The notes under the pieces: generated by a model | Seen by the model: only the letters and a program-made list of their open reading frames with translations | What the model was told of the DNA's origin: nothing | Database searches by the model: none | Position numbers and translations under genes: made by a program | Shown: piece after piece, positions 7,287-12,705 of the stretch | How the letters are laid out: each line of letters begins with the position of its first letter | Numbering within the stretch: position 1 is the first letter of the stretch | Assembly: GCA_002789675.1 (NCBI GenBank) | Contig: PFTR01000119.1 | Location: forward strand, 1-32,649 | Direction of reading: 5' to 3' | DNA: 32,649 bases | Source of the DNA: Alphaproteobacteria bacterium CG_4_9_14_3_um_filter_47_13 | GTDB taxonomy: Bacteria > Pseudomonadota > Alphaproteobacteria > Micavibrionales > Micavibrionaceae

Positions 7287-7919
7287 ATGATCTTCTCCCC
7301 CCCTCATCTTGAAGATGGTGCCCGCTGGGCGGGACTGCGTATTGGTCTTCTGGGGGGCTCCTTTGACCCGCCCCATGAAGGTCATATTCATGCCAGTATC
7401 ATTGCACAGCAAACATTAATGCTGGATTCTGTCTGGTGGCTGGTATCACCGCAAAACCCTTTAAAAAACAAAACAACTTACAGCTTTGAAGAAAGATTTC
7501 AGCTCAGTTGCGAAATTACACGCCCCTATAATTCAAAACTTATCGTTAGTGATATCGAGCAAAAACTTGGTACAAATCTGACGTGGCAAACAATTCGTGC
7601 TTTAAAATACCATTTCCCGAAAACATCTTTTGTCTGGATCAGCGGGATGGATAACGCTTTAACCATGCATAAATGGCATAACTGGAACTATATTCTGGAT
7701 CAGGTTGCCACCGCTCATGTGGCTCGTCCGCCAGCATGGAGTCTGATTGAAAACTGCCCGTTAAAATTAAAGGCCACACAAAAACATACCTATCTTCATA
7801 AGGCAGGTCGGGTGTCTTTGGCTCCGCGCCATACCTACTGGCTTATGCAGAAAAAAATGACTGGTGCCTCTTCCTCGGCACTCAGAAATAAAGAATCCGG
7901 AATAAAAGAAGATTTATAG
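7287..7919 (+). CDS. nadD: Nicotinate-nucleotide adenylyltransferase
   Basis: NadD joins nicotinate mononucleotide and ATP to give deamido-NAD. The N-terminal nucleotidyltransferase signature GLLGGSFDPPHEGHIH is at about residues 20-35 with the (H/T)xGH element PHEGH. WWLVSPQNPLKNK and SFEERFQL follow, as is typical of NadD, and the C-terminal GASSSALRN stands for the usual ISST/SxxR motif. At 210 residues it is of normal size. In many Alphaproteobacteria nadD directly precedes rsfS; here 217 bp separate them and hold a candidate small RNA. The SD before the ATG is weak. Confidence 0.95.
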   Translation: MIFSPPHLEDGARWAGLRIGLLGGSFDPPHEGHIHASIIAQQTLMLDSVWWLVSPQNPLKNKTTYSFEERFQLSCEITRPYNSKLIVSDIEQKLGTNLTWQTIRALKYHFPKTSFVWISGMDNALTMHKWHNWNYILDQVATAHVARPPAWSLIENCPLKLKATQKHTYLHKAGRVSLAPRHTYWLMQKKMTGASSSALRNKESGIKEDL

Positions 7920-7924
7920 TATGG

Positions 7925-7953
7925 TTGCACCCTATACTGAAAAGGTGTAAAAT
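7925..7953 (+). promoter_or_regulatory. Predicted sigma70-type promoter in the nadD-rsfS gap
   Basis: TTGCAC (7925-7930) and TAAAAT (7948-7953) are separated by 17 bases, a good match to the housekeeping consensus. Predicted transcription start is near 7960. The only signals downstream are a hairpin terminator at 8061-8096 and then rsfS, so it could serve a short RNA, rsfS by read-through, or both. Confidence 0.45.
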
Positions 7954-7959
7954 AGTTAT

Positions 7960-8096
7960 ATGAGGGATACGTTTCTTTTAATACTGAAAAAGACAGTCGA
8001 AAGGGAAGGTGCAGCGCATTGATTATATGTTGCATGTTCCATAGAAACGGGTTCATAAGTAACGCTTCGATGCTTGTTCATCGGGGCGTTTTTGTT
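7960..8096 (+). ncRNA. Candidate small RNA (about 135 nt) between nadD and rsfS
   Basis: The segment is bounded by a good promoter (7925-7953) and a strong intrinsic terminator (8061-8096) and has no credible gene of normal size. It does contain a 20-codon frame, MRDTFLLILKKTVEREGAAH, whose ATG falls at the predicted transcript start and would therefore be leaderless. I cannot assign it to a known RNA family; it does not fit SRP, 6S, tmRNA or RNase P RNA. It could equally be a leader controlling the rsfS operon by attenuation. The evidence is the signals alone. Confidence 0.3.
8061..8096 (+). terminator. Intrinsic terminator upstream of rsfS
   Basis: AACGCTTCGATG (8061-8072) pairs with CATCGGGGCGTT (8079-8090) over 12 positions including two G-U pairs, around a 6-base loop, and runs into TTTTTGTTT. 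This is a good rho-independent terminator on the + strand. It ends either nadD transcription or the candidate small RNA. Confidence 0.7.
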
Positions 8097-8136
8097 TATG
8101 GTAAGATTGTTTCAATAGAATAAAGGAGAATAAACC

Positions 8137-8523
8137 ATTTTAAAAACCTATAACAAGGGACTGCAAAGTCCGGAACAGTTAAAAGAGATTGTCGAACAAT
8201 CCCTTGATACTGATAAAGCCGAAGACATTGTCACCATTGATCTCAAAGGCCAGACAGCCATTGCCGATTATATGGTTATTGCTTCGGGTACGTCAACAAG
8301 ACAGGTTTCTGCCATGGCTGAAAAGCTCAGGGATCGCCTCAAGGCTCTCGGTGTCAGCGACATCCGGATTGAGGGCAAGGATTTGTGCAACTGGGTTATT
8401 CTGGATGCGGGAGATGTTATTGTCCATTTATTCCGTCCGGAGGTTCGCGAGTTTTATAATATTGAAAAAATGTGGCAGAGTTATTCACACGGTCAGGATA
8501 TTACAAGAAATATCCCCGTCTGA
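8137..8523 (+). CDS. rsfS: Ribosomal silencing factor RsfS
   Basis: RsfS binds ribosomal protein uL14 and blocks subunit joining when nutrients are short. The conserved body is present: LDTDKAEDIVTIDLKGQTAIADYMVIASG, then TSTRQVSAMAEKL, GKDLCNWVILDAGDVIVHLF and REFYNIEKMW. The only in-frame ATG near the front (8272) would delete the conserved first 45 residues. Upstream to the in-frame stop at 8131-8133 there is no ATG, GTG or TTG; the frame contains ATT at 8137, placed 8 bases after a perfect GGAG (8125-8128). I take ATT as the start, giving 128 residues, close to the family norm. CTG at 8161 is a less well placed alternative. Confidence 0.9.
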   Translation: MLKTYNKGLQSPEQLKEIVEQSLDTDKAEDIVTIDLKGQTAIADYMVIASGTSTRQVSAMAEKLRDRLKALGVSDIRIEGKDLCNWVILDAGDVIVHLFRPEVREFYNIEKMWQSYSHGQDITRNIPV

Positions 8524-8544: not shown

Positions 8545-8985
8545 ATGATACATATTGATATTATAGCCGTAGGTAAACTACGCGATAAGGCATTACTGTC
8601 TTTATGGCAAAATTACACAAAGCAGCTACAATGGCCGCTGGCGCTTTATGAAATTGACGCTAGAAAACCTGACGGCATTGAAGAAAAAATCCTTGAAAAA
8701 ATCAACCCTCGATCCCATCTATTCATTTTGGATGAAAGAGGGAAAAGTCTGCCGAGTCCGGACTTTGCAAAAAAGCTGGAAGATATCACTACAAATGGTA
8801 TTTCCACGATCCAGTTTATTATCGGTGGTGCGGACGGACTCAGTGATAAAATCCGCCAGAAAGCAGATTTTTTACTTTCTTTCGGCGTGCAAACATGGCC
8901 TCATATGCTTGTCCGTATTATGCTGGCAGAGCAGATTTATCGTGCCAGACAAATTCTTGCAGGACATCCTTACCATCGCGAATAA
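8545..8985 (+). CDS. rlmH: 23S rRNA (pseudouridine-1915-N3) methyltransferase
   Basis: A SPOUT-family methyltransferase of 146 residues that methylates pseudouridine 1915 in helix 69 of 23S rRNA. The SAM-binding knot shows FIIGGADGLS (about 91-100), then SFGVQTWPHMLVRIMLAEQIYRA, and the C-terminus ends with the invariant HPYHRE (141-146). At 146 residues it is slightly shorter than the common 155. It follows rsfS by 21 bp, the common pairing in Gram-negative bacteria; both act on the large ribosomal subunit. Confidence 0.97.
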   Translation: MIHIDIIAVGKLRDKALLSLWQNYTKQLQWPLALYEIDARKPDGIEEKILEKINPRSHLFILDERGKSLPSPDFAKKLEDITTNGISTIQFIIGGADGLSDKIRQKADFLLSFGVQTWPHMLVRIMLAEQIYRARQILAGHPYHRE

Positions 8986-11622: not shown

Positions 11623-12705
11623 ATGGCCGCAACACCAACAGCCTTTTCTTTCATGGCCTTTGTACAGGGGATGGTTTTTGTTATTATAACCTTCCTTTTT
11701 CTTGCCTTGTTTCTACTCTATAATTCAGAGAAGACAACAAAAAAACTGGAAGAACGTCTTGCATCGCAAACTGTCATTATTGAACAGGAAACAGGCGATC
11801 ACCTGACACAGGAACATTTGCCCTCTGCTTCTGATATTGTTGAATCACGGAATGAGGAAGTCCTCCCTGCCCTACCCTCAGAACATGCCAATATGGAATC
11901 CGGCCTTGCCGAGACTCCTATAGAAGGGCTATCTGTAACAACGAAGCAGGGAGACAAGCCGGTTATCAGAAAAAAAGACGGCCTGTCCGCTTTCAAAGCT
12001 TATAGAAGGCCTTTTGACGTTTATGCTTCTGATAAATCTCTGATATCAATTGTTATTACTGATTTGGGACTGTCGGATGTCGCCACTGAATCTGCCATCA
12101 GAACCATGCCGCCGGAAATTTCTCTTGCGATTTCACCCTATGCCGGAACGATTGATTTCTGGATACAGGAATCCCGCGCCCGTGGCCATGAAATATGGCT
12201 GACACTCCCCCTTGAAAACAAGAACTATCCTGCGGAAGATCCCGGACCGCATACCATGATTATTGATGCTCCGGAGCGCGAAAATCTTGCGAAGCTCGAC
12301 TGGCTTTTATCACGAGGGCAGGGCTATGTCGGGTTCATTACAGGATATGAACCTGCTTTTATGCAATCCCTCAATGATATGCGTCCTGTTATTGGCAGTA
12401 TTTACACAAGCGGACTGGGTTTTGTTGATGGTTCGGCAAAGCCCGGAATTATCCCGCAAACTATGGCCGTTAGCATGAAAGCGCCCTATTCTACCGTCAA
12501 TATATGGCTCGATAGACCGGATCCATCGCAGGAGTCCCTTCAGAATAAATTGGAAAAACTGGAAAAAATATCCCGCGAGAATGGCTTTGCCGTTGGCATT
12601 ATCCGGCCTCTGCCTGTAAGCTATCATCAGATACTGGAATGGATCGAGACGCTGCCTGATAAAAACATAGCGCTGGCGCCATTATCCGCAACAACAGGCT
12701 ATTAA
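11623..12705 (+). CDS. YibQ-like divergent polysaccharide deacetylase, probable inactive paralogue
   Basis: A 360-residue protein with an N-terminal membrane anchor (about 13-33), a disordered linker to 135 and a divergent polysaccharide deacetylase (DUF610/YibQ) domain at about 138-358. The fold landmarks are clear (SIVITDLGLS, SLAISPYAG, ARGHEIWLTLPLE, GPHTM, GYVGF). Compared with the second copy in this window, metal-site positions are lost: DD is TD (146-147), HMPME is TLPLE (194-198), NNHMGS is ITGYEP (239-244) and IGHP is IIRP (326-329). I infer it is not a working hydrolase. Its position after envC and ctpA is conserved and suggests a structural or regulatory envelope role. Confidence 0.88.
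   Translation: MAATPTAFSFMAFVQGMVFVIITFLFLALFLLYNSEKTTKKLEERLASQTVIIEQETGDHLTQEHLPSASDIVESRNEEVLPALPSEHANMESGLAETPIEGLSVTTKQGDKPVIRKKDGLSAFKAYRRPFDVYASDKSLISIVITDLGLSDVATESAIRTMPPEISLAISPYAGTIDFWIQESRARGHEIWLTLPLENKNYPAEDPGPHTMIIDAPERENLAKLDWLLSRGQGYVGFITGYEPAFMQSLNDMRPVIGSIYTSGLGFVDGSAKPGIIPQTMAVSMKAPYSTVNIWLDRPDPSQESLQNKLEKLEKISRENGFAVGIIRPLPVSYHQILEWIETLPDKNIALAPLSATTGY

Follow-up and report, generated by a model that had tools for sequence, protein, structure and literature searches.

The rsfS locus and its start codon

We analyzed a window of 32,649 nucleotides (nt), positions 1 to 32,649 of the forward strand of contig PFTR01000119.1 from Alphaproteobacteria bacterium CG_4_9_14_3_um_filter_47_13 (family Micavibrionaceae). 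The window carries rsfS, the gene of the ribosome-silencing factor RsfS, in the RsfS neighborhood nadD (7287 to 7919)-rsfS-rlmH (8545 to 8985). The genome comprises 2.35 Mb, and its nearest named relatives are Alphaproteobacteria metagenome-assembled genomes, several of them labelled Micavibrio. On the sequence and its comparison with relatives, rsfS almost certainly starts with the AUU at 8137. The features of the locus and of its upstream region are collected in Table 1.

The rsfS frame reads TAA, ACC, ATT, TTA, AAA, and it contains no ATG, GTG, or TTG from the TAA down to the ATG at 8272. The protein started at the ATT matched NCBIfam TIGR00090 at 118.4 bits (cut-off 56.9), with residues 17 to 113 covering positions 3 to 99 of the 99-position profile, and Pfam PF02410 at 114.8 bits (cut-off 21.6). 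The initial annotation had claimed that no ATG, GTG, or TTG is available before the in-frame stop, that the conserved N terminus is encoded upstream of the ATG, and that the ATT lies 8 bases past GGAG; direct reading and the coverage of TIGR00090 bore this out. The ATG at 8272 is an unlikely start, because it would cost about the first third of the RsfS domain. The TTG at 8189 in the list of open reading frames was also rejected, as it lies in another frame. The locus has the sequence traits of genes of the infC type, infC being the gene of initiation factor 3 (IF3), whose non-canonical starts are under IF3 control: an AUU, AUC, or AUA start codon, a strong Shine-Dalgarno sequence, and no canonical start available.

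Table 1. Features of rsfS and of the region upstream of it in the window
Feature	Positions	Strand	Remarks
Promoter-like TTGCAC-17-TAAAAT	7925..7953	+	8/12 consensus bases; just past nadD stop; from comparison
uORF1, 20 amino acids, predicted leaderless	7960..8022	+	ATG 6 nt after -10
uORF2, 34 amino acids, TTG start	8019..8123	+	overlaps uORF1 stop (TTGA); Shine-Dalgarno-like site, -8.8 kcal/mol
Terminator-like hairpin	8061..8090	+	12 pairs, T-rich tail; from fold and shuffle comparison
GGAG Shine-Dalgarno of rsfS	8125..8128	+	spacer 8 nt; duplex energy -8.7 kcal/mol
TAA closing rsfS frame upstream	8131..8133	+	direct reading of frame
ATT start codon	8137..8139	+	best start-like codon by Shine-Dalgarno duplex; recurs in family
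rsfS coding sequence, 128 amino acids	8137..8523	+	ATT 8137 to stop 8521-8523; TIGR00090, PF02410
First in-frame ATG, residue 46	8272..8274	+	inside RsfS domain; unlikely start

Start codons of rsfS in relatives

The rsfS loci that we compared came from named contigs (80 loci), from 58 genomes including that of the window (54 loci used of the 55 with a match), and from a class-wide draw with a match in 220 of 240 genomes (125 distinct loci used). Low-scoring lineages are under-represented, because loci of the class draw were taken highest profile score first. The total was 260 loci, or 249 after 11 with an identical start region had been dropped; these counts are not independent, because near-identical loci, among them L009, L010, and L093, stayed in, as did runs of Azospirillum. 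Starts were called by one rule that was fixed for all loci and is somewhat noisy. It took the best AAGGAGGT match in each locus and then the in-frame codon 8 to 13 nt from the central A of that match. Run out of frame on the same sites, the rule met start-like codons in 13/237 and 6/237. The counts given here come mainly from this rule, as an earlier one for the class took chance upstream GTG and TTG codons as canonical and omitted CTG.

In the 34 loci of the same family, including that of the window, the Shine-Dalgarno-placed start was ATT in 28, TTG in 5, ATC in 1, and ATG in none. The ATT thus recurs in orthologs well beyond the genus, and this comparison strongly supports the start that had been claimed at first. 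A sequencing error is very unlikely, because the ATT recurs in many separate assemblies. Twenty loci from other families of the order gave ATA (4), ATT (3), GTG (2), and TTG (1), with 10 uncalled. Selecting for ATN fixes the first two bases, so that only a bias at the third base counts as evidence. For the 49 close loci called ATN, this base was T in 46, A in 2, and C in 1. The isoleucine codons inside the genes of the same loci were ATC (228), ATT (199), and ATA (78); Fisher's test against the start codon gave p = 1.6e-14, a value that is too small because the loci are related. An ordinary internal isoleucine codon would not be expected to show such a bias toward T. In two loci from another family of the order (L142 and L154), rsfS is seemingly extended at the N terminus, and the best Shine-Dalgarno sequence precedes an ATC at about residue -30 to -35.

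Across the class, the rule called ATT in 62 of the 249 distinct loci, CTG in 42, ATC in 30, ATA in 28, TTG in 10, GTG in 5, and ATG in 1, leaving 71 uncalled. ATG is therefore 1 of 178 called starts, although some lineages nonetheless look like ATG. By family, ATT, ATC, or ATA was called in 39 of the 93 families in the class sample, and one of these or CTG in 56. Azospirillum loci were called ATC (for example, L016, L020, and L031). CTG was called in 17/17 loci whose names we take to belong to Rhodobacteraceae, and in 2/8 Xanthobacter-named loci, the other 6 being uncalled. All five Rhizobiaceae records have the motif AAAGGA or AAAGGG and then CTG ACA ACA, and the codons before the CTG vary between genera. 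In three of these five, the annotated start is an ATG that lies before or after the CTG; the other two have no annotation there. Annotated starts lie off the likely CTG, at an ATG or GTG upstream or downstream of it, in two Rhizobium records, one of Sinorhizobium meliloti, and one of Qingshengfaniella. Around the likely CTG, the annotated starts of the related records L336, L337, L338, and L340 conflict (upstream ATG, internal ATG, and internal GTG). A separate Rhodobacteraceae upstream open reading frame (uORF), ATGTCCTG..., was rejected, because just about 3 nt separate its ATG from the Shine-Dalgarno sequence and an in-frame CTG at 8 nt fits better.

A tree of RsfS proteins implies no fewer than 8 changes of the third base among T, C, and A when nodes need a support of at least 0.9, or 21 when the limit is 0.7; being drawn from a short protein, these numbers are rough. 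As called here, AUG is scarce at the Shine-Dalgarno-placed rsfS start in many Alphaproteobacteria, though the codon itself varies. Like infC, rsfS has a conserved non-canonical codon at which AUG is avoided (0 ATG among 34 loci in the family and 1 among 178 in the class). Selection against AUG at the rsfS start is very probable.

Control genes and points against a general non-AUG start

We compared rsfS with neighboring genes and with infC. No in-frame ATG, GTG, or TTG at all was found in 28/228 rsfS loci (21 more, open at the locus end, were set aside), compared with 1/161 for rlmH (15 set aside), 1/93 for nadD (16 set aside), 0/32 for atpF, and 0/29 for ctpA. In L196 (rlmH) and L122 (nadD), these codons are also missing ahead of the conserved region. 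The best canonical start of rlmH (n = 165) was ATG in 132, GTG in 24, TTG in 7, and none in 2; it was ATG in 33/38 atpF and 26/29 ctpA loci. The envC gene appeared to have no canonical start in 3/15, an artefact of the query start, and an ATG is present with the right one. With 0 or 1 usable locus each, atpB, atpF2, and the genes at 11623 and 12723 were not used as controls. The positive control, infC, could be read by pattern in all but 4 of the 30 relatives considered (of 42 matched). It had ATT in 9, ATC in 8, ATA in 6, and ATG, GTG, and TTG in 1 each, so that ATT, ATC, or ATA starts made up 23/30. The infC of the window's own genome has an ATA after CAGGAG, by Shine-Dalgarno placement. The base before the start is C in 92/120 rsfS loci with ATT, ATC, or ATA, including the window (8134 to 8136), and in 18/23 such infC loci (L286 to L314); before canonical starts, it is C in 50/163 rlmH, 17/37 atpF, and 5/28 ctpA loci.

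Several observations weigh against non-AUG initiation as a general property of rsfS. Of the 71 uncalled loci, 12 lack a Shine-Dalgarno-like site, and the other 59 have one that no start-like codon follows. By inspection rather than by script, an ordinary ATG start is apparent in at least 8 loci (L118, L123, L127, L150, L169, L176, L190, and L198) and perhaps in about 16, and the rule had called ATT in two of the eight, L123 and L198. It also called ATT in L158, whereas duplex energies favor ATA. On neighboring genes, the rule found ATG in 16/38 rlmH, 17/21 ctpA, and 23/28 atpF calls, but in just 8/20 nadD and 1/8 envC calls, and it gave ATT, ATC, or ATA in 8/38 rlmH and 6/20 nadD calls. Because the rule errs on neighbor genes, single start calls, CTG above all, are not proof. 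Within the family, the TTG of 5/34 loci is an accepted start, and in L001, L003, and L151 a TTG directly after the ATT could be their start. In the infC of the window's genome, an in-frame ATG lies five codons past the ATA.

Outside the Alphaproteobacteria, the picture also counts against a general avoidance of AUG, as 37 inspected non-alpha loci of the phylum sample mostly have ATG or TTG. A TTG stands at the best site in 8 of them (L276, L277, L284, L323, L325, L327, L330, and L332) and a GTG in L326, and most others have an ATG near the expected place. L264, L269, L322, L331, and L334 are ambiguous; in L334, the stronger site belongs to an ATT. The E. coli rsfS has TTG in its record, and a published analysis states the UUG start (PMC10917681). 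The same paper reports that polyamines left E. coli rsfS translation unchanged, though weak starts were expected to respond, and that rsfS expression peaks in exponential phase (PMC10917681).

A predicted leader upstream of rsfS

Between nadD and rsfS, the window contains a promoter-like site, two predicted uORFs, and a terminator-like hairpin (Table 1). The second, uORF2, crosses the hairpin and ends at the rsfS Shine-Dalgarno sequence, in another frame than rsfS and with its own stop. The pattern TT[GT]NNN-16/18-TA[TA]AAT, placed 4 to 7 nt before an ATG, was present in 41/51 family loci versus 0.9 expected in shuffles; it had been composed after 20 of the tested loci had been viewed. A generic promoter scan of 7850 to 8250 (threshold 9 of 12) found none, so the promoter proposed upstream of the hairpin comes from comparison only. 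Three of the 41 loci (L141, L151, and L153) were set aside, as their ORFs did not fit. In the remaining 38, uORF1 is 11 to 20 codons long, and its ATG lies exactly 6 nt past the -10 element in 36. Because this spacing puts the expected transcription start on the A of the ATG, uORF1 should be leaderless.

The uORF1 stop is a TGA after A, G, or T, and thus overlaps a start codon, in 22/38 loci, which is little above chance because C precedes just two further TGA stops. A uORF2 start was found near the uORF1 stop in 38/38 loci, which is easy to obtain when 30 nt are searched and the best site is taken. More telling is that the predicted uORF2 has no stop before -45, and thus spans the hairpin, in 34/38 loci, where about a quarter would do so by chance (a rough hand reckoning). 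Its median length is 39.5 codons versus 11 in the +2 frame, the +1 frame being closed by construction, and it ends between -70 and +59 of the rsfS start in all 38. The single-strand fold was computed for 8050 to 8180. Terminator-like hairpins occurred within the last 130 nt before the rsfS start in 33/52 loci versus 4.1 expected in shuffles, and none occurred inside the genes.

An alignment of six leaders showed similarity chiefly within the genus; two of the loci (L085 and L086, minus-strand matches) had been taken on the wrong strand. A search of the leader against Rfam gave nothing at the gathering score, and weak matches to PyrR, Spot 42, and a thermometer (E 0.13 to 0.69) were judged to be chance. 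By sequence comparison only, the generic promoter scan being empty, the region has the layout of a leader-peptide attenuator, in which the gene is preceded by a promoter-like site, a short ORF, and a terminator-like hairpin. Unlike such attenuators, the rsfS leader has a first ORF that is predicted to be leaderless and a second, overlapping ORF that crosses the hairpin; by eye, no run of codons for a single amino acid is common to the listed uORF1 peptides. We infer that the promoter-like site, the uORFs, and the hairpin would form a regulated leader. The initial annotation was right about the ATT start and had overlooked this leader, the wide spread of non-AUG starts, and the ATA, ATC, and CTG that other lineages appear to use. 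Elsewhere in the window, a tRNA-Leu (CAA) gene lies at 1266 to 1350 on the minus strand.

A proposed model for the control of RsfS synthesis

The non-AUG start across relatives suggests that rsfS translation is deliberately held in check. In a study of Streptomyces, IF3 is described as destabilizing 30S complexes at non-canonical starts, by which infC autoregulates, and SigR was deregulated when its non-canonical start was swapped or IF3 was weakened (PMC5472188). Two other papers describe the binding of RsfS to uL14 of the 50S subunit and its action as an anti-association factor, which may block 50S joining to the 30S initiation complex (PMC7125091, PMC3400551). We consider it fairly likely that initiation at the AUU at 8137, which follows a good Shine-Dalgarno sequence, is weak and is discriminated as at infC, the class codon (AUU, AUC, AUA, CUG, UUG, or GUG) having been selected to be non-AUG.

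In the model that we propose, IF3 would reject the 30S complex on the non-AUG codon of rsfS unless a 50S subunit joins quickly, and the rsfS start codon would thereby sense free 50S. RsfS on uL14 would block 50S joining, so that more RsfS, or more IF3, would lower RsfS synthesis and keep subunit association homeostatic. A start that needs fast 50S joining would in this way let RsfS restrain its own production. Leaderless starts are largely read by 70S ribosomes, and for this reason uORF1 in the window's family would also depend on the state of the ribosomes. Translation of uORF2 through the hairpin would let RNA polymerase reach rsfS, adding transcriptional control. Control of rsfS by IF3 and subunit joining is, on balance, slightly more likely than not. 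Translation-dependent antitermination in the leader has a little less than an even chance, and negative feedback of RsfS on its own synthesis is a possibility that we hold with more reserve. IF3-sensitive feedback would agree both with the avoidance of AUG at rsfS and with its likeness to infC.

Other explanations of the start codon were weighed. In records of relatives, the annotated rsfS start is an ATG or GTG placed either upstream or internally, as if the true start were canonical and lay elsewhere, be it at ATG 8272, through a frameshift from an upstream ORF, or at an ATG hidden by an assembly error. This is highly improbable, given the in-frame stop starting 6 nt upstream of the ATT, the coverage of the domain, the recurrence across many assemblies, and a uORF2 that is in a different frame with its own stop. 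A weak codon might instead merely fix a low RsfS level, without regulation that depends on IF3 or RsfS. The UUG of E. coli and the UUG or GUG of some relatives, which are weak but accepted starts, would agree with this, as would the missing polyamine response in E. coli. We nevertheless think it unlikely, because an ATG with a weaker Shine-Dalgarno sequence would serve the same end, yet strong sites are kept with ATT, ATC, and ATA, as at infC.

Two further alternatives concern the leader. Ribosomes that end uORF2 at 8123 might re-initiate at the ATT at 8137, so that the identity of the codon would matter little. The uORF2 stop 13 nt before the ATT, together with the position of uORF2 ends in all 38 loci, speaks for such coupling; the leader, however, was found in the window's family alone while the non-AUG start is widespread in the class, and the rsfS Shine-Dalgarno sequence is strong in its own right, which makes coupling as the main explanation quite unlikely. 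The hairpin, located between nadD and rsfS in a region where the generic scan found no promoter, might have nothing to do with rsfS and terminate nadD or a small RNA instead. This has some plausibility, though we doubt it, since nadD and the hairpin have a conserved promoter-like site between them, just about 46 nt separate the hairpin from the ATT, and the predicted uORF2s run open across the hairpin in 34/38 loci.

The proposed control by IF3 and subunit joining has its closest parallel in infC. Both genes have a conserved near-cognate AUN start and a strong Shine-Dalgarno sequence, both encode a ribosomal-subunit factor, and the same codon set is used in relatives. In contrast to IF3, RsfS acts on the 50S subunit, and rsfS, known here from sequence, also uses CTG, TTG, and GTG. 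The E. coli pcnB gene, which encodes poly(A) polymerase, shares with rsfS the rare AUU start. E. coli rsfS (ybeB) is the same gene with a weak start, annotated there as UUG, whereas ATT is outside the usual start set. The Streptomyces sigR gene, with its IF3-repressed GTC start, resembles rsfS in having a conserved non-canonical start outside infC and differs in its product (a sigma factor), its range (one genus), and its codon (PMC5472188). Among the matches listed in our literature search, which left subscription papers and preprints mostly uncovered, none dealt with a non-canonical rsfS start beyond the E. coli UUG or with an rsfS leader; the parts seen of PMC4117421 and PMC10117765 do not mention RsfS.

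We tentatively suggest that rsfS and infC are a pair in Alphaproteobacteria that is kept non-AUG, both encoding anti-association factors (IF3 on 30S and RsfS on 50S) that would be read out from subunit joining. The window's family would add the leaderless ORF and the translation-dependent terminator as a second readout of the 70S supply. Non-canonical starts have been characterized in few bacterial genes, and the two well-studied ones considered here, infC and sigR, are both regulated through the start (PMC5472188). If widespread in so conserved a ribosome factor, such a start would reveal how cells set RsfS levels, and it would correct the rsfS starts in genome records.
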